Assembly: GCA_025965195.1 (NCBI GenBank)
Contig: JAOPXK010000127.1
Location: 1-56,575 of the forward strand
DNA length: 56,575 nt
Source of the DNA: Marmoricola sp.
Lineage (GTDB): Bacteria > Actinomycetota > Actinomycetes > Propionibacteriales > Nocardioidaceae
Reading direction: 5' to 3'
The notes under the pieces were generated by a model that was not told the origin of the DNA, ran no database searches, and saw only the letters and a program-made list of their open reading frames with translations. The translations under genes and the position numbers were made by a program. Shown in pieces: positions 1 through 45,080 of this stretch (positions within the stretch are counted from its first letter, which is position 1; every line of letters starts with the position of its first letter).

Positions 1-720
1 GCGGTACAGCGCCGCATACACCCCCCCGCGCGCGACCAGCTCGGGCCCCGCGCCGACTTCGACCACGCCGCCTTTGCCCAGCACTACGATCTTCTTCACC
101 CCATGCACGGTGGCGATGCGGTGGGTGATGATGAGCGTCGTGCGCCCGTGCATCAGTTCCTCGATCGTCGACATGATGGCCGCCTCGGTCGTCGGGTCGA
201 GCGCGGAGGTCGGCTCGTCGAGCACGAGCACCCGTGGGTGCGTGGTGAGCACCGAGCCGATCGCCACTCGCTGCTGCTGACCACCGGAGAGGTCACGCAG
301 TGGTGCATCGCGAAGGTCCGCAATCCCCAACAGGTCAAGGGTTTCCTCGACTCGCTTGCGCATCACGGCGGACGGGAGACCGAGCTGTTCCATGCCGTAG
401 GCGAGCTCCTCCTCGACCGTGTCGGTGACGAAGCCGGCCAGTGGGTCCTGGCCGACGACGCCGACCAGGTCGGCCAGGTCGCGGGGCCGGTGTGCACGGG
501 TGTCGCGTCCGTGCACCAGCACCCGGCCGCCGAGCCGGCCACCGGTGAAGTGCGGGACGAGACCGTTGACCGCGCCGAGCAGGGTGCTCTTGCCGGAGCC
601 CGTGCGGCCCACGACCAGGACGAGCTCGCCCTCCTCGACGGTCAGGTCGACGTCACGCAGGACAGGGGCATCGGCTCCGTCGTACGCCATGGAGACGGAG
701 TCGAAGACGATCGCGCTCAT
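1..720 (-). CDS. ECF transporter ATP-binding protein, partial (C-terminus beyond the window)
   Basis: Energy-coupling ATPase of an ECF vitamin transporter, acting on the cytoplasmic face of the membrane with EcfT and a substrate-binding S protein. The 240 visible codons hold a full ABC domain: Walker A GRTGSGKST near residue 40, signature [13 protein letters not shown], Walker [14 protein letters not shown] and the switch histidine in IITHR. The ATG overlaps the EcfT stop by 4 bp (ATGA), so translation is probably coupled. The frame is still open at base 1, so it cannot be told whether this is a single-domain EcfA or the first half of a fused two-domain ATPase, which occurs in actinobacteria. 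No S component is in the window; it would be expected just beyond base 1. Position below a cobalamin riboswitch suggests the substrate is cobalamin (inference). Confidence 0.9.
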   Translation of the reverse strand, partial: MSAIVFDSVSMAYDGADAPVLRDVDLTVEEGELVLVVGRTGSGKSTLLGAVNGLVPHFTGGRLGGRVLVHGRDTRAHRPRDLADLVGVVGQDPLAGFVTDTVEEELAYGMEQLGLPSAVMRKRVEETLDLLGIADLRDAPLRDLSGGQQQRVAIGSVLTTHPRVLVLDEPTSALDPTTEAAIMSTIEELMHGRTTLIITHRIATVHGVKKIVVLGKGGVVEVGAGPELVARGGVYAALYR

Positions 721-1814
721 CGGCTCCCCCTTCGCGCGGCGCGCTGCACCGGCGGAGGAGTGAGTACGGCGGGCAGGGCCGCGACCAGGATGCCGAGCGT
801 CGCCCAGACCGGCAGCACCGGCGCGGCCAGCGGCTGCAGCGGCATGTCGAGGGCGATCGCGTCGGTATGTCTGGTCGCGAACATTCCGAGCGAGGCCGCC
901 ACTCCGCACAGCACGGTGACGGTCTCGACCAGTCCCCATGGGTCGGGCCGGTAGCTGCTGATGTTGACCGACCTGCCACCGAGCCAGAGCCCGAAGAGCA
1001 CCAGGGCCAGCCCGACCAGCAAGGCGGGCAGCCCCATCCAGGTCGGGCTGTGGTCGGTGTCGAGGATCCCGTACATCGCCAGCGCCAGCACCAGCAGCCC
1101 TGTCAGCGTGGCGGCGCCCGTCAGCAGTCGGTGGCGTGATTCGGTGTTCCGGCCGTAGCCGCGAGACTCCATCGCCGCCGCCAGCAACAACGACCGGTCG
1201 AGGGTGTCCTGCAGGACGGGGAGCGCGACCCGTGGGAACGCCCGGACACCGCGGCTCGTGTCACCACGCAGCAACCGGGCGCGGAGCACCCGCTGGACGC
1301 TCTCGGCGAGCTGGGGGGCGACGCTGACCGAGACGATCACCGCGGTGCCGATCTCATGGAGCGCGCCGGGCAGGGTGCGGAGCAGCCGTTTCGGGTTGGC
1401 GAGCGCGTTGGCGGCGCCGATCGCGATGATGAGTACGCCGAGGCGAGCACCCAGCAGCGCCGCCGCCAGCAGTCCCTCGAGATAGACGTTGCCGAGCAGG
1501 TTGATCCCGGCGGCCCAGCTCGGGAGTCCGATGCTCGGAAGGGGCAGGATCTCGATCTCGCCGTACTTCAGGCCGACCAGCACGTGCAGCACGACCCGCA
1601 CCACCACGATCACGACCGCCAGCCCGACGTACAGGTTGAACGCGCGCGCCCAAGGCGAGTCACCACGCCGCGACACCACCACCAGCCAGACCGCCGCGAT
1701 CATCAGCGCCAGCAGCAACGGGTTGGTGGTCAGGTTCGCGGCCACGGCGACACCGATCGCCCACCCCCACCATGCCAGCGGGTGCAGGGATCGCGGCAGC
1801 CGCGGGGTCGTCAC
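717..1814 (-). CDS. ECF transporter transmembrane coupling protein EcfT
   Basis: Membrane scaffold of an ECF transporter, linking the ATPases to the S component. The 365-residue product has about seven or eight hydrophobic segments. The central cytoplasmic region carries the arginine-rich coupling-helix pattern of the family (VLRARLLRGDTSRG, then AAAMESRGYGR near residues 185-230). It is longer than the usual 250-270 residue EcfT because of extra hydrophobic segments at the C-terminus. The GTG start at 1814 lies 4 bp after the stop of the upstream DUF4430 gene, and the stop overlaps the ATPase start, so all three are one operon. Regulation is expected from the cobalamin riboswitch about 2 kb upstream. 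The family assignment is secure; the transported vitamin is inferred from the riboswitch. Confidence 0.88.
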   Translation of the reverse strand: MTTPRLPRSLHPLAWWGWAIGVAVAANLTTNPLLLALMIAAVWLVVVSRRGDSPWARAFNLYVGLAVVIVVVRVVLHVLVGLKYGEIEILPLPSIGLPSWAAGINLLGNVYLEGLLAAALLGARLGVLIIAIGAANALANPKRLLRTLPGALHEIGTAVIVSVSVAPQLAESVQRVLRARLLRGDTSRGVRAFPRVALPVLQDTLDRSLLLAAAMESRGYGRNTESRHRLLTGAATLTGLLVLALAMYGILDTDHSPTWMGLPALLVGLALVLFGLWLGGRSVNISSYRPDPWGLVETVTVLCGVAASLGMFATRHTDAIALDMPLQPLAAPVLPVWATLGILVAALPAVLTPPPVQRAARRGSR

Positions 1815-1818
1815 GTCC

Positions 1819-2640
1819 TCAGGCTCTGCGTCGTAGCAGGGCGGTCACGCCACCGGCGGCCCCGAGCGCGACGACCAGCAGCAGGCCCCAGACCCAGGAG
1901 ATGCTGCCGCCGCTGGTGTCAGCCGCAGCGGGCGTCGGAGTGTCGGTCGGTGAGGTCGTCGGACTCGCCGAGACAGCTCCGCCGGCCAGCGGCGTTGCTG
2001 TTGCGACCGGTGCCTGCGTCGGTTTGGCCGGCTTCGGCGCCCGACTGGACGCGGTTGCCGTCGGCGACGCAGATCCCAGCGCGGCAGTCGCGGCAGTCGC
2101 TCGTGTCGCCGTCAAGGTCGGGCTTGCCTGGTGCGTGGCAGCCGGCGGCTTGTGGGTCGGCGCGTGCGTCGGGGTGGGCTTCGGGGTCGACGCGGGAGTG
2201 CCGGGCGCGGGTGTGCTCGGTCCGGCCGACCCGGACTCGAACCGCCAGCCCTCGACCGAACCCGGAGCGGGGTTGTAGCTGTCGGGACCCACCGAGCTGA
2301 AGTGCCACGCTCCGCCGGGGCTGGCGTGGAAGTACACCCAGTAGCTCGGGTTGGCGTGGCAGGCGGCCGGGTTCGAGGGAGTGTTGTTGAGCTGACAGAT
2401 GATGCCGTTCGGGGCGTGTTCCGGGGCGAAGCCGGCAGTCTCCAGGGCGCTCGTCCCCGATGACGGGTCGCCGCTCGCGCAGCCGACGCTGGTGTGGTCG
2501 GGGAACTGGACGACCACGGTCACCCCACTGGTCCCGGAACACGCCGCGGCAGCGGCCGGCTGGGCGGGAGCGACCACGAAGGTCGCTCCCGCCAGCACGG
2601 CGAGCGAACAGAGGACGCGTTTGAACAAGGTCAGCCGCAC
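1819..2640 (-). CDS. Membrane-anchored DUF4430-like (transcobalamin beta-domain type) surface protein
   Basis: Predicted extracellular, C-terminally anchored protein of 273 residues. The GTG start at 2640 lies inside the last codons of the upstream barrel gene, giving a signal peptide (hydrophobic core LCSLAVLAGATFVV, cleavage after AAAA). Residues about 35-140 form a compact domain with four to five cysteines and the motifs NPSYWVYFHA and GSVEGWRF, which resemble DUF4430, the C-terminal beta domain of transcobalamin and intrinsic factor. Residues about 140-235 are a Pro/Thr/Ala-rich linker (TPKPTPTHAPTHKPPAATHQ), then one transmembrane helix and RRR. Coupled to the barrel protein upstream and EcfT downstream. 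In animals these two domains are fused and clamp cobalamin between them; here they are separate neighbouring proteins. Cobalamin capture is inferred, not shown. Confidence 0.78.
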   Translation of the reverse strand: MRLTLFKRVLCSLAVLAGATFVVAPAQPAAAAACSGTSGVTVVVQFPDHTSVGCASGDPSSGTSALETAGFAPEHAPNGIICQLNNTPSNPAACHANPSYWVYFHASPGGAWHFSSVGPDSYNPAPGSVEGWRFESGSAGPSTPAPGTPASTPKPTPTHAPTHKPPAATHQASPTLTATRATAATAALGSASPTATASSRAPKPAKPTQAPVATATPLAGGAVSASPTTSPTDTPTPAAADTSGGSISWVWGLLLVVALGAAGGVTALLRRRA

Positions 2641-3725
2641 TTGATCGCGACTGCGGTCTTCTTCGCGCCGGCGTTGCTGATGTCGATGAGCGGCGTGCCG
2701 GTGAGGCCGAGGACTGCCTGCGTGGTCGAGCGGCGGTCCTGGTCGACCGGCCGGGCCGAGGCGCCTCCGGCGGCGGCCTCCGCCTTCGCGGCCGCCTTGT
2801 AGGCAACCGCGCCGACGAACGCCGACGGGAACGCGCAGCCATACTGCATCCGGAGCAGGTACGCCCGGGCGCTGCTGATCACGCGGGGACGACCGGAGTT
2901 GGCCAGCGCGATGATCGCCAGCGAGGTGCTGTTGGAGTTGACGGCCGGCGTCGTCGGGCCGCCGTGGAAGCCGCCATTGCCGGCGCGGTCCTTGACCAGG
3001 AACGCCTGCGCTGCCGTGACGGCCTTGCGACTGGCGGTGGTCGGGTGGACCGCGTTGAGGGCCTGGATCGCCATCGACGTCGCATCCGGGTCGGCGGTCG
3101 TCCGGTCGGTGCACTTGGGGTTGACCTCGTTGAGGCGGAAGCCTCCGCCCGGGCACTGCTGCCTGAGCAGGAACGAGATCGCCTTGGCGTCGACGCCGCG
3201 GCCGGCCTTCTTGATGCCAATGATCGAGAAGGCCTGGCTGAACGTGTTGGAGAAGTCACCGAACGCCGACTGGTCCGCGAACCGGCCGTGGTCGTTCATC
3301 AGGTGGATCACCCGGGCCGTCAGGTTCACGCCACCGAGGTGGCCGGGGTTGGCCCGGCGCTGGGCGAGCGCGACGACCAGGGCCTTCGCGGAGGCGCCGG
3401 CGTACTTCTCGGCGCCTGCACCGATGTAGTCGGTGATGTGGGATCCGAGGTACGACGTGGAGCGGACGGCCTCGCGCTGGCTGGTCTTGGCCGCGTCGAG
3501 GGCCAGGATCGCGTCGGCCGTGAGGCCGTAGTCGGGGTACGCCGTCCCGGAAAAGGTCGTCGTCAGGTGGTGACCGGTCCTGACCAGCTCGCGGGCGAGG
3601 AATGCGCTCGCGCCGGTGCCGGGAGTGGCGCTGGCAGCGTCGGCAGCGGGCGATGCCGCGATCAGGGCGATGGCCGTCAGCCCGACCGCGGCTGCGGTGC
3701 GGGTACGGCGGGAGAACATGGACAT
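2631..3725 (-). CDS. Secreted alpha/alpha-barrel protein (prenyltransferase/squalene-oxidase repeat, transcobalamin-like)
   Basis: Predicted secreted protein of 364 residues with a signal peptide ending ADAASA. The mature part is built from repeated helical units, each with a D/N-x-x-(S/A)-T/D-(S/A)-x-A-I-x-A-L pattern: DYGLTADAILALDAAK, DPDATSMAIQALNA, NSTSLAIIALANSG and STTQAVLGLTG. This is the alpha/alpha toroid pattern shared by terpene cyclases, prenyltransferase beta subunits and the N-terminal domain of transcobalamin/intrinsic factor. No DxDD or other cyclase acid motif is seen, so binding is likelier than catalysis. I chose ATG 3725 because a GAGAGG Shine-Dalgarno lies 6-7 bases upstream; a longer in-frame reading would run through the riboswitch. 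First gene of the riboswitch operon; overlaps the DUF4430 gene. Confidence 0.82.
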   Translation of the reverse strand: MSMFSRRTRTAAAVGLTAIALIAASPAADAASATPGTGASAFLARELVRTGHHLTTTFSGTAYPDYGLTADAILALDAAKTSQREAVRSTSYLGSHITDYIGAGAEKYAGASAKALVVALAQRRANPGHLGGVNLTARVIHLMNDHGRFADQSAFGDFSNTFSQAFSIIGIKKAGRGVDAKAISFLLRQQCPGGGFRLNEVNPKCTDRTTADPDATSMAIQALNAVHPTTASRKAVTAAQAFLVKDRAGNGGFHGGPTTPAVNSNSTSLAIIALANSGRPRVISSARAYLLRMQYGCAFPSAFVGAVAYKAAAKAEAAAGGASARPVDQDRRSTTQAVLGLTGTPLIDISNAGAKKTAVAIKCG

Positions 3726-3730
3726 GTGAT

Positions 3731-3955
3731 GCCTCTCAGCGGTTCGTGACAGGACCTGGGCTGAGAGGCGTGAACCTGACCCAGGCTCCGCCCCGTTGAC
3801 CTCGACGGTGGTGTGGAGCCGCTCGTGACACCCGGGCATTCCGGCTCACCACCCAGAAGGTGGCCTACGGCTGCGGGTCAGCGCCGGACTTGGACCGGCT
3901 TTCCCCAGGGTTCACGCGTTGCTGAAGCCGTATGGCTTCCCGTTGATGCTACCGC
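3731..3955 (-). promoter_or_regulatory. Cobalamin (B12) riboswitch with ribosome-binding-site sequestering stem
   Basis: Read on the minus strand, the leader between the hmgA stop and the barrel gene carries the conserved cobalamin aptamer core: GGGGAAAGCCGGTCCAAG, then TCCGGCGCTGACCCGCAGCC and GTA, and further on GAGCCGGAATGCCCGGG. An 8-bp closing helix is possible between 3909-3916 and 3769-3776 (CGTGAACC with GGTTCACG). Downstream, 3760-3769 and 3731-3740 form a perfect 10-bp inverted repeat whose second arm contains the GAGAGG ribosome-binding site of the barrel gene, so control is probably at translation initiation. The outer boundary at about 3955 is approximate. Confidence 0.88.
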
Positions 3956-3959
3956 TCCG

Positions 3960-5225
3960 CTACTTCTTGGCGGGCCCGCGACCGGCCCAGGTCCAGGCGT
4001 ACGACGGGTCCTCGGTGTCAACGGCGAGCTCACCCAGCTCGAGCGGCCGGAACGTGTCAACCATGACCGCGAGCTCATCGAAGTACTCGGCGCCGATGGA
4101 GGCTTCGACTGCGCTCGGCTGTGGGCCATGGGCATAGCCACCGGGGTGCAGCGAGATCGAACCGATGCCGATACCGCTGCCCTTGCGAGCCTCGTAGTCA
4201 CCGGCGACGTAGAACATCACCTCATCGGAGTCGACGTTCGAGTGGTAGTACGGCACCGGGATCGACTGCGGGTGGTAGTCCACCTTGCGCGGACAGAAGT
4301 TGCAGATCACGAAGTTGGTGCCCTCGAAGACCTGGTGGACCGGCGGCGGCTGGTGCACCTTGCCAGTGATCGGCATGAAGTCCTCGACGTTGAACGTGTA
4401 GGGATAAAGACAGCCGTCCCAGCCCACGACATCGAACGGATGTGTCGCGTAGGTCATCCGGGTCCCGACGATGCCGCTGGCCACGCGGTGCTTGACCAGC
4501 ACCTCGAATCCGGTGGTCGAGCTGCCGTCGGTGGTCGAGCTTGTCGAGACCACGAAGGTCTCGCCTGGCCCGTGCAGATCGCGTTCGCAGTACGGCGCAT
4601 GCTCGAGGAACTGGCCGAAACGGGAGAGGTACCTCTTCGGCGCAGAGATGTGCGAGTTCGACTCGATTGCGTACAGGCGAGAGACTCCACCCTGCTGATT
4701 GCTGGGCTCACTACTGGGCTCACTACTGGGCTCGTGACTGGGTACCCAACGATGCGTCGTCGATCGCGGGATCAGGACGTAATCGCCTTGCCGGTAAGGG
4801 AGCACTCCGAAAATCGTCTCGACCGTACCGCTACCGGCCTCGACATACACGCACTCGTCGCCGATCGCGTTGCGGTACAACGGTGAGGCCGCCGAGGCGA
4901 CCACATAGGAGATCCGGACGTCGGCGTTGCCCAGCATCAGCCGTCGCCCCTCGACAGCGTTGACCGGTTGATCCGGCACAGGGATCTCGTGCAGCCGCAG
5001 GTGACGCGGCTTCAGCGGATGGTTGGGCTTCGTGGAGAGGTCGGGCAGCTCCCACACCTGGCTGTCGACGATCGCGGACGGCACGCCCGAGTGATACAGC
5101 AACGCGGAGTCGGAGGAGAAGCCCTCCTCTCCCATCAGCTCTTCGTATCGCAGGTGGCCATCCGGATCGCGGAAAGCGGTGTGCCGTGTGGGCGGGATCT
5201 CGCCGACGGCTCGGTAGTACGCCAT
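3960..5225 (-). CDS. hmgA: Homogentisate 1,2-dioxygenase
   Basis: Ring-cleaving Fe(II) dioxygenase converting homogentisate to maleylacetoacetate in tyrosine and phenylalanine breakdown. The 421-residue cupin protein has the family signatures near its C-terminus: VPYYHSNVDSDEVMFY with the probable His and acidic iron ligands, and SLHPGGYAHGPQ with the next histidines. Other landmarks are YRNAIGDECVYVEAG and VGWDGCLYPY. The ATG at 5225 is preceded by GGAGGG, closer to the start than usual. Two insertions look unusual: a SEPS tandem repeat around residues 163-174 from a 12-bp DNA repeat, and a Ser/Thr-rich stretch (STSSTTDGSSTT) from a dispersed palindromic repeat. Divergent to the unknown gene and fahA across a 28-bp gap, so the promoters must overlap. 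hppD is about 8 kb away. Confidence 0.93.
   Translation of the reverse strand: MAYYRAVGEIPPTRHTAFRDPDGHLRYEELMGEEGFSSDSALLYHSGVPSAIVDSQVWELPDLSTKPNHPLKPRHLRLHEIPVPDQPVNAVEGRRLMLGNADVRISYVVASAASPLYRNAIGDECVYVEAGSGTVETIFGVLPYRQGDYVLIPRSTTHRWVPSHEPSSEPSSEPSNQQGGVSRLYAIESNSHISAPKRYLSRFGQFLEHAPYCERDLHGPGETFVVSTSSTTDGSSTTGFEVLVKHRVASGIVGTRMTYATHPFDVVGWDGCLYPYTFNVEDFMPITGKVHQPPPVHQVFEGTNFVICNFCPRKVDYHPQSIPVPYYHSNVDSDEVMFYVAGDYEARKGSGIGIGSISLHPGGYAHGPQPSAVEASIGAEYFDELAVMVDTFRPLELGELAVDTEDPSYAWTWAGRGPAKK
4511..4552. repeat. Dispersed palindromic repeat copy inside hmgA
   Basis: GGTGGTCGAGCT occurs twice (4513 and 4531), and the second copy runs into the imperfect palindrome GGTCGAGCTTGTCGAGACC at 4533-4551. 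It has the same layout as the element in hppD at 13960. It is in frame in hmgA and encodes the Ser/Thr stretch. Confidence 0.6.
4704..4739. repeat. 12-bp tandem repeat inside hmgA
   Basis: Three consecutive units of GGGCTCACTACT (the third is GGGCTCGTGACT) sit in frame within hmgA and encode repeated SEPS on the minus strand. A 12-bp period keeps the frame, so copy number could vary without breaking the gene. Confidence 0.85.
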
Positions 5226-5253
5226 CCCTCCACCCTGCCGCGCGTGTTCTAAC

Positions 5254-6117
5254 GTGGCAACCGTGACCGCCCTCCCAGCCTTCCTGGAGCACTTCGTCGA
5301 CGACGCCGCGATCTTCCCGCCCGGCAACGTCCCCCTCGAACAGGCTGTCATCGAGCATCGCGAACACCTTGCCTCGGCGTACGCCGGCCTGGTCGGCGGG
5401 TTCGTGGTCAGCGACGTGAAGCTGCCCGACCTGCTGGAGGTGGTCTCGACCCCGCTCGCGATCAACCTCGTCGTCACCGGCGGCGCCGGTGCGATCGAGC
5501 CGGCGGTCCGCTGGGCGACCCGCTCCCCTGCGCTCTCGCTGCGAGCCCTGGAGTTCGCGCTGCGTGACGAGGAAGACCTTGCGCACAACGCCCAGCGGGT
5601 GATCGCGGCCGTCGACAGTCTCGAGGACGACCTCAGCGGCGTGGAGTTGTACGTCGAACCGCCGCGTCTCCACGGCGGACCGGGCCACGGCTGGCTCGCT
5701 GCGCTGGACGAGCTGGCGGCTCGCGAGATCCGGCTGAAGTTCCGCACCGGCGGCGTCACCGCCGATGCCTTCCCGACCGCGGCCGAGGTCGCCGCCTGCA
5801 TCGACGCCGCGCTCGACCGCGAGCTGCCGTTCAAGTGCACGGCAGGTCTGCACAACGCGGTCCGGCACATGAATCGAACGGACTTCGAACGCCCCGTCGA
5901 GATGCACGGCTTCCTGAACATCCTGCTGGCCACCAGGGCCACCCTCGACGGTGACGACCCCGTCGAGGTGCTCACCGCGACGGATCTCACCGAGCGGCTG
6001 GACGCTGCGGACTTCGATCTGCTGGCCAGCACCCGCAAGTGGTTCACGTCGTTCGGGAGCTGCAGCGTCCTCGAGCCGCACGAAGACCTGGTCGAGCTCG
6101 GTCTGGTCTCGCCGTGA
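5254..6117 (+). CDS. Conserved protein of unknown function between hmgA and fahA
   Basis: A 287-residue soluble protein of no named family that I recognise. It has no signal peptide or membrane helix. Conserved-looking blocks are FVDDAAIFPPGN near the N-terminus, VELYVEP in the middle, then IRLKFRTGGV, LPFKCTAGLHNAVRH and MHGFLNILLAT. The alternation of short hydrophobic strands with charged loops and a Lys/Cys/His-rich C-terminal half suggests a barrel-type enzyme. GTG at 5254 or GTG at 5263 are both possible starts. Its TGA overlaps the GTG of fahA, so the two are translationally coupled. The homogentisate pathway needs a maleylacetoacetate isomerase between HmgA and FahA and none is otherwise visible here; this gene is a candidate by position only. 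Confidence 0.85.
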   Translation: MATVTALPAFLEHFVDDAAIFPPGNVPLEQAVIEHREHLASAYAGLVGGFVVSDVKLPDLLEVVSTPLAINLVVTGGAGAIEPAVRWATRSPALSLRALEFALRDEEDLAHNAQRVIAAVDSLEDDLSGVELYVEPPRLHGGPGHGWLAALDELAAREIRLKFRTGGVTADAFPTAAEVAACIDAALDRELPFKCTAGLHNAVRHMNRTDFERPVEMHGFLNILLATRATLDGDDPVEVLTATDLTERLDAADFDLLASTRKWFTSFGSCSVLEPHEDLVELGLVSP

Positions 6118-7307
6118 CGTGCTGGGTCCCGGGTGCCGCCGGATCGCCGTACGGCCTCGACAACCTGCCCTACGGGGTCTTCACCAACGCCGACCAACCG
6201 GCCCGCGTCGGCGTGCGGATCGGCGACTTCGTCCTCCCTCTCTGCGCGGTCGCGGAGTCCGCGGCATTCGCGCAACCGAGCCTCAACGCGTTCCTCGCTC
6301 TGGGACGAGAGGTCTGGCACGAGACGCGTGCGTGGCTGATCTCCCTGTTCGGCAACGAGGAGCACCGCGCCCTCGTCGAGCCACTTCTCGTGCCGGTCGA
6401 CGACGTGACACTGCAGCTCCCGTTCGAAGTTGCCGACTACGTCGACTTCTACTGCTCGCTCCAGCACGCCACCAACGTCGGCAAGATGTTCCGGCCCGAC
6501 AGCGACGCGCTGACCCCAAACTGGCGTCACCTCCCGATCGGGTACCACGGCCGCGCGGGCACCGTCGTGGTCAGCGGTACGCCGGTCCGGCGACCGTCCG
6601 GCCAACGGCTGGCAGCAGGCTCGAGCACCTCCGGACCGATTCCGACGTACGGTCCCAGCGCGCGGCTCGACATCGAGTGCGAGCTCGGTTTCGTGGTCGG
6701 CACCCCAACCCTGCTTGGCGAAAGTGTCCGCACTGCCGACTTCGAGGAGCACGTCTTCGGGGTACTCCCCCTCAATGACTGGTCGGCCCGCGACATCCAG
6801 AGCTGGGAGTACGTCCCGCTCGGCCCGTTCCTCGGCAAGTCGTTCGCCACCTCGGTCGCGGGCTGGGTGACCCCGCTCGAGGCCCTCGAGGCGGCCCGTG
6901 TCGACCTGCCGGGCCAGGACCCGAAGCCGCTGGACTACCTGTCGGTCGGGGCCCGATCGGGGTACGACATCGACTTCGAGGTGCTGCTCAACGGTGAGGT
7001 CGTCAGCCGGCCGCCGTACGCCGCGTTGTACTGGTCGCCCGCGCAGATGCTTGCCCACCTGACCGTCAACGGAGCTTCGCTGCGCACCGGCGACCTGTTC
7101 GGCAGCGGCACGATCAGCGGTGACGACAAGGCGCAGCGCGGCTCGTTCCTCGAGCTGTCCTGGGGTGGCAAGGAGCCGTTCCGGGCCGGCGGAATGGACC
7201 GGACCTTCCTCGAAGATGGCGACGAGGTGACCCTCCGTGCGAGCGCAACGGGAGTGGCGGGTGGGCGCATTGCGCTTGGTGAGGTGACCGGCCGCATCGT
7301 CGCCTGA
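6114..7307 (+). CDS. fahA: Fumarylacetoacetase
   Basis: Hydrolyses fumarylacetoacetate to fumarate and acetoacetate, the last step of tyrosine catabolism. The 397-residue product follows the family from end to end: a short N-terminal SH3-like part, then YVDFYCSLQHATNVGKMFRP, PIGYHGRAGTVVVSGTPVRR, LDIECELGFVVG (metal-binding acids) and PLNDWSARDIQSWEYVPLGP with FLGKSFATSVAGWVTP. The GTG start at 6114 overlaps the stop of the upstream gene (GTGA), which fixes the start and implies coupling. It ends about 75 bp before the ABC transporter gene. Confidence 0.95.
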   Translation: MTCWVPGAAGSPYGLDNLPYGVFTNADQPARVGVRIGDFVLPLCAVAESAAFAQPSLNAFLALGREVWHETRAWLISLFGNEEHRALVEPLLVPVDDVTLQLPFEVADYVDFYCSLQHATNVGKMFRPDSDALTPNWRHLPIGYHGRAGTVVVSGTPVRRPSGQRLAAGSSTSGPIPTYGPSARLDIECELGFVVGTPTLLGESVRTADFEEHVFGVLPLNDWSARDIQSWEYVPLGPFLGKSFATSVAGWVTPLEALEAARVDLPGQDPKPLDYLSVGARSGYDIDFEVLLNGEVVSRPPYAALYWSPAQMLAHLTVNGASLRTGDLFGSGTISGDDKAQRGSFLELSWGGKEPFRAGGMDRTFLEDGDEVTLRASATGVAGGRIALGEVTGRIVA

Positions 7308-44712: not shown

Positions 44713-45080
44713 TGGTGGAGCTGGCGGGAATCGAACCCGCGTCCTAAAGCGCAGTACCAGGTCTTCTCCGGGTGCAGTCTGCTTGATGTTTTCTCAGTCC
44801 TGGAGCTCGTGCAGACCCGTCTCCAACAGACTCAGCTACGAAAAGTCCCGATCAACCCCCGTAGCAACGGTTGATCAGCAAGCCTTCTAAATGAGGCCGG
44901 AGTCCGGGACGAAGGCAGATACCCGGTCCGACCCTTCGGTCACTGCTCAGGCAGCGAGAGCGAAGTCAGTGCGATTAGAGTTGGCACTTGTGTTTTCCAA
45001 CGGACGTTTACGAGATGACGTTGGCTTCTCGACCCGCTTCTCCTGGGACAAAACGTCCTCAGTCGAAACCAATCAGCCCC
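44713..45080 (-). ncRNA. ssrA: Transfer-messenger RNA (tmRNA)
   Basis: The 5' end is GGGGCTGATTGGTTTCGAC (45080 downward) and the 3' end is a tRNA-like TPsiC arm and acceptor stem ending GCTCCACCA at 44713, giving 368 bases. The tag frame from GAA 44997 to the TGA at 44949-44947 reads ENTSANSNRTDFALAA, with the usual protease signal ALAA. SmpB is encoded about 1 kb upstream. The RNA starts only 20 bp after the amidohydrolase gene, so its promoter lies within that coding sequence. Confidence 0.96.

Follow-up and report, generated by a model that had tools for sequence, protein, structure and literature searches.

A transcobalamin-type clade of beta-grasp (SLBB) domains was defined in bacteria by Burroughs et al. 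in 2007, who predicted a role in B12 scavenging and noted fusions to toroids as well as operons with CbiO/CbiQ-like proteins; the clade was placed in low-GC Gram-positives, planctomycetes and, less often, euryarchaea, the bacteria usually being without B12-synthesis enzymes (PMC1796856). The alpha domain of human transcobalamin (made with the receptor CD320) and its beta domain, when expressed apart, co-eluted only with cyanocobalamin, and the beta domain alone was crystallised with cobalamin (PMC5599065). ECF-CbrT of Lactobacillus delbrueckii is a characterised B12-specific transporter of the energy-coupling factor (ECF) type (PMC5997447). Here we describe an operon at one end of a 56,575-base stretch of Marmoricola sp. 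DNA (contig JAOPXK010000127.1; the whole stretch is called the window below) in which a cobalamin riboswitch, two secreted proteins and ECF transporter genes lie together. We propose that it serves B12 (corrinoid) uptake through a riboswitch-controlled two-piece surface receptor that hands the vitamin to an ECF importer, and put the probability of this at roughly three in four. That the operon encodes a B12 (corrinoid) importer is well supported; binding of B12 itself we infer.

A riboswitch-led operon at the end of a contig

The operon genes all lie on the minus strand, from the riboswitch core at 3905 down to base 1. Gene order, the association with riboswitches, the folds and the S component of the transporter, as given here and below, were computed. 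The features are as follows.

3834-3905, minus strand: cobalamin riboswitch aptamer core, compact form (RF00174, 29.8 bits)
3731-3769, minus strand: predicted expression-platform hairpin (perfect 10-bp stem, leader folding)
2631-3725, minus strand: secreted alpha/alpha-toroid protein of 364 amino acids, putative transcobalamin alpha half, SCO2321-like (NF053823, family profile, homologous fold in the fusion L113)
1819-2640, minus strand: secreted, C-terminally membrane-anchored protein of 273 amino acids, putative transcobalamin beta half, SCO2322-like (NF040672, modelled beta domain)
717-1814, minus strand: EcfT transmembrane coupling protein, 365 amino acids (Pfam CbiQ PF02361, seven hydrophobic segments)
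1-720, minus strand: first domain of an ECF ATPase (EcfA), truncated at the contig end, with bases 1 to ~189 probably chimeric (ABC_tran, ECF_ATPase_1)

A preliminary description of this DNA had reported that the four genes are tightly joined and led by a cobalamin riboswitch, and both points hold. The toroid and beta genes overlap by 10 bases, the beta gene starting with GTG; four bases separate the beta gene from that of EcfT, and the EcfT and ATPase genes overlap by four bases (ATGA). The RF00174 match covers model positions 45-169 of 189 with an E-value of 1.6e-5 for the 1001 bases searched, and its aligned core sits about 108 bases before the toroid ATG at 3725. Its score falls under the gathering score of 31.5 bits and the match is thus not seen in a default Rfam scan, but we regard it as more than a chance one because most homologous loci have a cobalamin-class riboswitch at the same place.

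Two sets of relatives carry this statement (L, C and G numbers are our labels for loci, contigs and genomes). The toroid-selected set comprised 46 loci, the window excluded, made up of the 30 best SCO2321-model loci of a sample of the phylum and 16 others. A cobalamin-class riboswitch was found in 40 of these by covariance model at E ≤ 0.05 (16/16, 12/15 and 12/15), with 21 of the 40 at or over the gathering score and all upstream of the toroid match on the same strand, positions being compared by eye; none was found at that threshold in L009, L012, L015, L026, L029 or L033. The S-selected set came from a scan of a species-genome collection for the family of the S component, from which the best 80 of at least 550 confirmed loci were analysed and 17 were set aside for having fewer than 800 bases upstream of the first recognised gene (L171 only through a stray ATPase match). 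Of the 63 evaluable loci, 57 have a riboswitch core no more than 900 bases upstream of their first operon gene. The probe for these was a 22-base core with up to three mismatches, adopted because extraction of cores by regular expression had found only 7 of 42. First-order Markov sequence totalling 546,504 bases gave it no match, and it had nine matches elsewhere in the 1,378,866 bases, all with two or three mismatches; as the probe was derived from toroid-selected loci, some of them from the same genomes, the two sets are not fully independent.

The leader between the riboswitch core and the toroid gene contains a hairpin, found in both the minimum free energy and the centroid folds, whose stem is a perfect 10 bp formed by GCCTCTCAGC (3769-3760) and GCTGAGAGGC (3740-3731); with its tail the hairpin has a predicted energy of -22.1 kcal/mol. 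The whole leader is only modestly more stable than shuffled sequences (z -1.48; 17 of 200 shuffles were as stable). The 3' arm of the hairpin holds a Shine-Dalgarno-like GAGAGG just 5' of the ATG at 3725, which suggests translational control.

Two surface proteins and their natural fusions

By eye, the toroid protein has a signal peptide and no C-terminal anchor, and the beta protein a signal peptide, a Pro/Thr/Ala-rich linker, a C-terminal hydrophobic segment and an RRR tail. Neither has a Pfam match over cut-off. The nearest named families are NCBIfam SCO2321 (NF053823), to which the toroid protein scores 92.9 bits against a curated cut-off of 300, and SCO2322 (NF040672), to which the beta protein scores 25.9 bits against 85; on these profile matches the two are distant relatives of those functionless Streptomyces families.

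The beta domain (2212-2559) is predicted to fold like the beta domain of transcobalamin, as a beta-grasp. Its model, built with 52 relatives, has a mean predicted local distance difference test score (pLDDT) of 87.1 and a predicted template modelling score (pTM) of 0.81, and the 15 best PDB entries by VIA-align are 3u7z and 14 entries of transcobalamin, haptocorrin and intrinsic factor (Z of 10.6 for 3u7z and for haptocorrin, 10.2 to 9.6 for transcobalamin, 10.0 and 9.5 for intrinsic factor). These superimpose with a root-mean-square deviation (rmsd) of 2.3-3.3 Å over 92-94 residues, and the next other fold follows at Z 6.4. The first 14 Foldseek rows are likewise transcobalamin, haptocorrin and 3u7z. 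Identity in the transcobalamin matches of this domain and of the fusion described below is 14-19%. The preliminary description had called the beta protein DUF4430-like, a label that the predicted fold supports and Pfam does not: PF14478 has no match in the window protein or anywhere in the genome, which sequence distance can explain.

The toroid protein resembles its transcobalamin counterpart less specifically. Alone, it gave one unrelated weak match among PDB sequences, and the profile of its family finds the toroids of squalene-hopene cyclases (best E-value 1.5e-34) and, weakly, those of complement C3/C4. Its fold is predicted from that of a homologue, the toroid of L113 (33% identity). L113, from a Nocardioidaceae metagenome-assembled genome, is one of ten stop-to-stop frames of relatives that hold both toroid and beta domains, which in the window are on two genes, unlike the single polypeptide of transcobalamin or intrinsic factor. 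The order is toroid-beta, as in transcobalamin, in L113, L115 and L091, and beta-toroid in L101, L134, L169, L154, L131, L119 and L096. L113 has 603 codons, with the toroid at 61-400 and the beta domain at 408-523; it was modelled from an alignment of 40 toroid and five beta rows, each half aligned to its own part (pLDDT 82.2, pTM 0.73; toroid blocks mostly >90, beta part 37-87). Rows 1-10 of its Foldseek list are all transcobalamin (E-values 2.6e-9 to 1.2e-7, 476-488 alignment columns), the squalene-hopene cyclases ranking after them at 1.7e-7. The preliminary description had proposed from the translations that the two proteins resemble transcobalamin halves, and named fold predictions in which neither did so as contrary evidence; the predicted folds do show the resemblance, less specifically for the toroid, through L113, than for the beta domain.

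The frames L101, L134, L154 and L169 each contain one beta domain followed by two toroid domains, and adjoin a separate beta protein and ECF genes.

The transporter, its S component and the weighing of alternatives

The EcfT protein scores 32.8 bits to CbiQ (PF02361; cut-off 25), and the ATPase 97.5 bits to ABC_tran and 184.9 to ECF_ATPase_1 (cut-off 315). Contig C13, one of 200 in the assembly, ends at base 1 of the window, so that the ATPase runs off there and the rest of the operon lies outside; only the first EcfA domain is present, cut and possibly chimeric. Its alignment with the EcfA of relatives fails after the motif DPT near residue 177, just past the conserved Walker B region, and the last ~63 codons (bases 1 to ~189) resemble the tail of an exporter-type ATP-binding cassette protein. 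The contig end is therefore probably chimeric, and no other matching place for bases 1-107 was found in the assembly among 40 candidates scored.

The preliminary description had suggested looking beyond base 1 for an S component. Relatives have one next to the operon, and contig C198 of this assembly has one too. Among the toroid-selected stretches, 23 of 38 hold T (EcfT), two A (ATPase) domains and S. In the S-selected loci the two A domains stand beside T in 63/63, the beta domain is present in 62/63 and a toroid somewhere in the locus in 53/63; no S-selected locus with more upstream sequence than those set aside lacked T. On C198 (L175, 5583 bases) an EcfA piece, the second half of an ECF ATPase, precedes the S component, and no other member of that S family was found in the assembly. 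In DNA the EcfA piece shares only 81.5% identity with window bases 183-410, so C198 is not simply the continuation of the window; its EcfA and S genes may belong to another copy, strain or allele.

The S component is a member of a membrane protein family in which four of the nine proteins scanned from relatives exceed the cut-off of Pfam PF12822; a tenth protein included in the scan proved to be an enoyl-CoA hydratase unrelated to the family. The preliminary description had named an S component specific for another vitamin as contrary evidence; no curated vitamin-specific model scored over cut-off for the S proteins scanned (the best was a folate family, at 13.8-19.5 bits against 60), while the riboswitch core recurs in the loci as given above. 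At E ≤ 1e-30 the family is present in 60 of 296 sampled genomes of the phylum. The SCO2321 model matches 100 of the 296, only 11 of them over cut-off, and many of the weak matches may be other toroids.

Of the two surface proteins, it is the beta half that stays constant, the toroid being optional. Of 24 genomes of the window's genus, 21 have S, 20 the beta half and 17 the toroid. S accompanies the toroid in 16 of those 17, and the remaining genome is 75% complete; in the five genomes of the genus with S and without toroid (L194-L198) both a beta match (38-105 bits) and the riboswitch core are retained. A toroid match is missing from 12 S-positive genomes of the same sample outside the genus; five of their loci were read (L190-L193, L199), of which three showed the core and four a weak match to the beta half. 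In the phylum sample 10 of the 60 S-positive genomes lack an SCO2321-model match; of the nine loci read, two have the core, four (L182-L185) have none and three end early. In some genomes the toroid lies away from the transporter under a riboswitch of its own, as in G313, where toroid and riboswitch (L051) are at 1.92 Mb and S at 0.56 Mb of contig C4. Toroids without ECF genes nearby (L056, L058, L060, L066-L069) still have a cobalamin riboswitch (L040, L042, L044, L050-L053).

Several observations weigh against the proposal. Taken alone, the beta domain gives weak Foldseek E-values, of which the best is 2.5e-3 and none reaches 0.001, and the beta-family profile matched nothing among PDB sequences, where the beta protein by itself gave linker-like matches to designed repeat proteins and one weak match. 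The fusion L113 compares with transcobalamin in Foldseek at template modelling scores of 0.31-0.43 and a global rmsd of 20-23 Å, so that the relative placing of its domains is unlike that in holo-transcobalamin; by VIA Z its toroid domain is closest to terpene cyclases (Z 26.0), and transcobalamin is absent from the 50 best VIA entries, an absence that says little either way because the toroid fills that list. Among the S-selected loci, no toroid gene was found in 10/63, and six lack a riboswitch core at the expected place (in L124 and L145 it is inside the operon, before a toroid gene; in L104, L158, L167 and L172 there is none), while the distant branch L182-L185 has beta, T, A, A' and S and no core. 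The S-family profile has no sequence match in the PDB at E ≤ 1, and so no sequence link to solved S components. Finally, the host genome has B12-synthesis genes, and uptake is consequently not obviously needed.

Of the distant branch L182-L185 we also note a weak EcfT match and very long open frames; these loci perhaps have another ligand or another regulation.

The results on the toroid bear on a reading in which it is an unrelated secreted toroid enzyme or polysaccharide-binding protein, with the beta half and the S component alone performing capture. By Z its best fold matches are terpene cyclases and sugar-acting enzymes, and it was not found in the ten loci just mentioned; in the genus, five S-positive genomes out of 21 likewise gave no toroid. 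Set against this are the ten frames that join it to the beta domain, three with the transcobalamin order, the cobalamin riboswitches of toroids without neighbouring ECF genes, and the fact that the alpha half of transcobalamin is itself such a toroid; we consider this reading unlikely. The claim of the preliminary description, that two halves capture cobalamin for an ECF importer, is supported by gene context, folds, S component and riboswitch, with the reservation that the toroid is not an obligatory partner. A plain secreted terpene cyclase was ruled out as the chief description by the beta-domain fusions, the riboswitch and the signal peptide seen by eye.

The identity of the ligand raises two further alternatives. 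The transcobalamin fold might be kept with a pocket suited to some other large ligand or a related tetrapyrrole (cobinamide, other cobamides, heme or a siderophore), as the low identity in the transcobalamin matches and the absence of sequence relation between the S family and any solved S component would allow, and as Burroughs et al. and a referee of their paper allowed in admitting a wider range of ligands (PMC1796856). The riboswitches, in 57/63 and 40/46 loci, point to corrinoids, and cobinamide stays within the corrinoid reading, so that we find a departure of this kind distinctly unlikely. In the other alternative the imported substrate is cobalt, or a cobalt precursor, that feeds B12 synthesis, and the surface proteins are metal-binding. 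Such import is also commonly under cobalamin riboswitches, EcfT matches a Pfam family described as 'cobalt transport protein', 3u7z, the equal-best fold match of the beta domain, has the title 'putative metal binding protein', and the genome does contain a B12-synthesis cluster (L092, contig C75:12500-31500) with CobN, CbtA, tetrapyrrole methylases, CobB/CobQ-like proteins, CobT and CobS and with four cobalamin riboswitch matches, two over cut-off. That cluster, however, supplies a separate cobalt transporter, CbtA; the S proteins match PF12822 and PF07155, with no cobalt M-component family among their matches; and the universal parts given for cobalt ECF systems are M, Q and O (PMC2667541), not surface proteins with the fold of B12 carriers. 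On the S-protein families, the separate CbtA and the M/Q/O makeup, a cobalt ECF system was set aside as the chief description, and we hold it to be very unlikely. Under the proposal of B12 import, uptake would add to synthesis in this host, which probably also makes the vitamin itself.

Elsewhere in the window, bases 3960-7307 hold genes that by eye, from their translations, encode homogentisate dioxygenase on the minus strand, its gene stopping just short of the riboswitch, and fumarylacetoacetase on the plus strand; these belong to tyrosine breakdown and are apparently unrelated to the operon. A tmRNA gene lies at 44713-45080 on the minus strand (Rfam, 166.4 bits).

A proposed route for B12 and comparison with known systems

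The ligand, its clamping between the halves, the hand-over to S and the direction of regulation are what we infer. At low intracellular B12 the riboswitch would be unbound and the ribosome-binding site open, and B12 would close the site, as the leader suggests. The surface receptor would consist of the anchored beta protein, with its predicted transcobalamin-type beta-grasp domain, and the freely secreted alpha/alpha-toroid protein; by analogy with human transcobalamin, cobalamin may settle first on one half, after which the other would clamp it in place at the membrane surface. Once loaded, the receptor would pass the vitamin on to the S component, with EcfT and the EcfA/A' ATPases driving S inward in ATP-dependent import. 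The S component and the second ATPase domain would lie past base 1 of the window, as seen in relatives and on another contig of the assembly. At loci without a toroid gene the beta half may act alone.

A fuller picture can be drawn, which we hold tentatively and at somewhat under even odds. It is that of a split transcobalamin assembled by its ligand, in which the vitamin itself brings together, at the cell surface, a steady anchored beta half and an optional free alpha half (encoded in some genomes at a distance, behind a B12 riboswitch of its own), and the pair passes it to a new B12-specific S family. Such an ECF system would devote a separate extracellular stage to capture, would be widespread in Actinomycetota and could be the bacterial source or a sister form of the one-chain animal B12 carriers by way of gene fusion.

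The proposal of a B12 importer gives a concrete and testable function to the functionless Streptomyces families SCO2321 and SCO2322 and to the S-component family. If it is true, surface capture proteins serve some transporters of the ECF class, for which direct binding of the vitamin within the membrane is the current view. The separate forms, those fused in either order and the beta-alone forms would then represent living intermediates for the origin of animal transcobalamin and intrinsic factor.

Extracytoplasmic capture of B12 ahead of transport is a feature of BtuF(CD) and of BtuG, whose folds and transporter class are unrelated to those of the present system. The preliminary description suggested that the pair of secreted proteins may replace the usual BtuF-type lipoprotein; ECF importers are not normally known to have one. 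The transcobalamin-halves idea itself was already in print in general form for other phyla (Burroughs et al. 2007; PMC1796856), and it is the split, riboswitch-controlled version that is little known. In the open-licence PubMed Central literature, judged by titles and the starts of abstracts and with subscription journals outside it, we found no actinobacterial split form with riboswitch and S component, and 'SCO2321' returned only one paper, on a transdermal-delivery peptide by its title and abstract start.

ECF-CbrT resembles the present system in having EcfT, two ATPase domains and an S component, B12 being the proposed substrate here. It differs in that, in the parts of its description cited, CbrT is presented without an extracellular capture protein (PMC5997447); the S family here has no sequence match to solved S components and its ECF module is dedicated and in an operon with S. 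The likeness to animal transcobalamin, intrinsic factor and haptocorrin lies in the predicted fold of the beta half, in the toroid fold as predicted from a homologue, and in the L113 fusion with the same domain order. Unlike in those carriers, the halves in the window are separate bacterial polypeptides of low identity to them, with a membrane-anchored beta half and a putative binding of B12. The division in the window, between an anchored beta half and a free alpha half, is the same as that of the separately expressed domains of human transcobalamin.

Also close are the SLBB proteins of Burroughs et al. (DUF4430 and its kin), which share a beta-grasp domain, secreted or anchored and frequently accompanied by an alpha/alpha toroid, next to an ECF-type ATPase and EcfT. 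The present system departs from them in its occurrence in Actinomycetota, in the missing PF14478 match, in the placing of the halves on separate genes and in the B12-synthesis genes of its genome, and it adds to that picture a cobalamin riboswitch and an S component.

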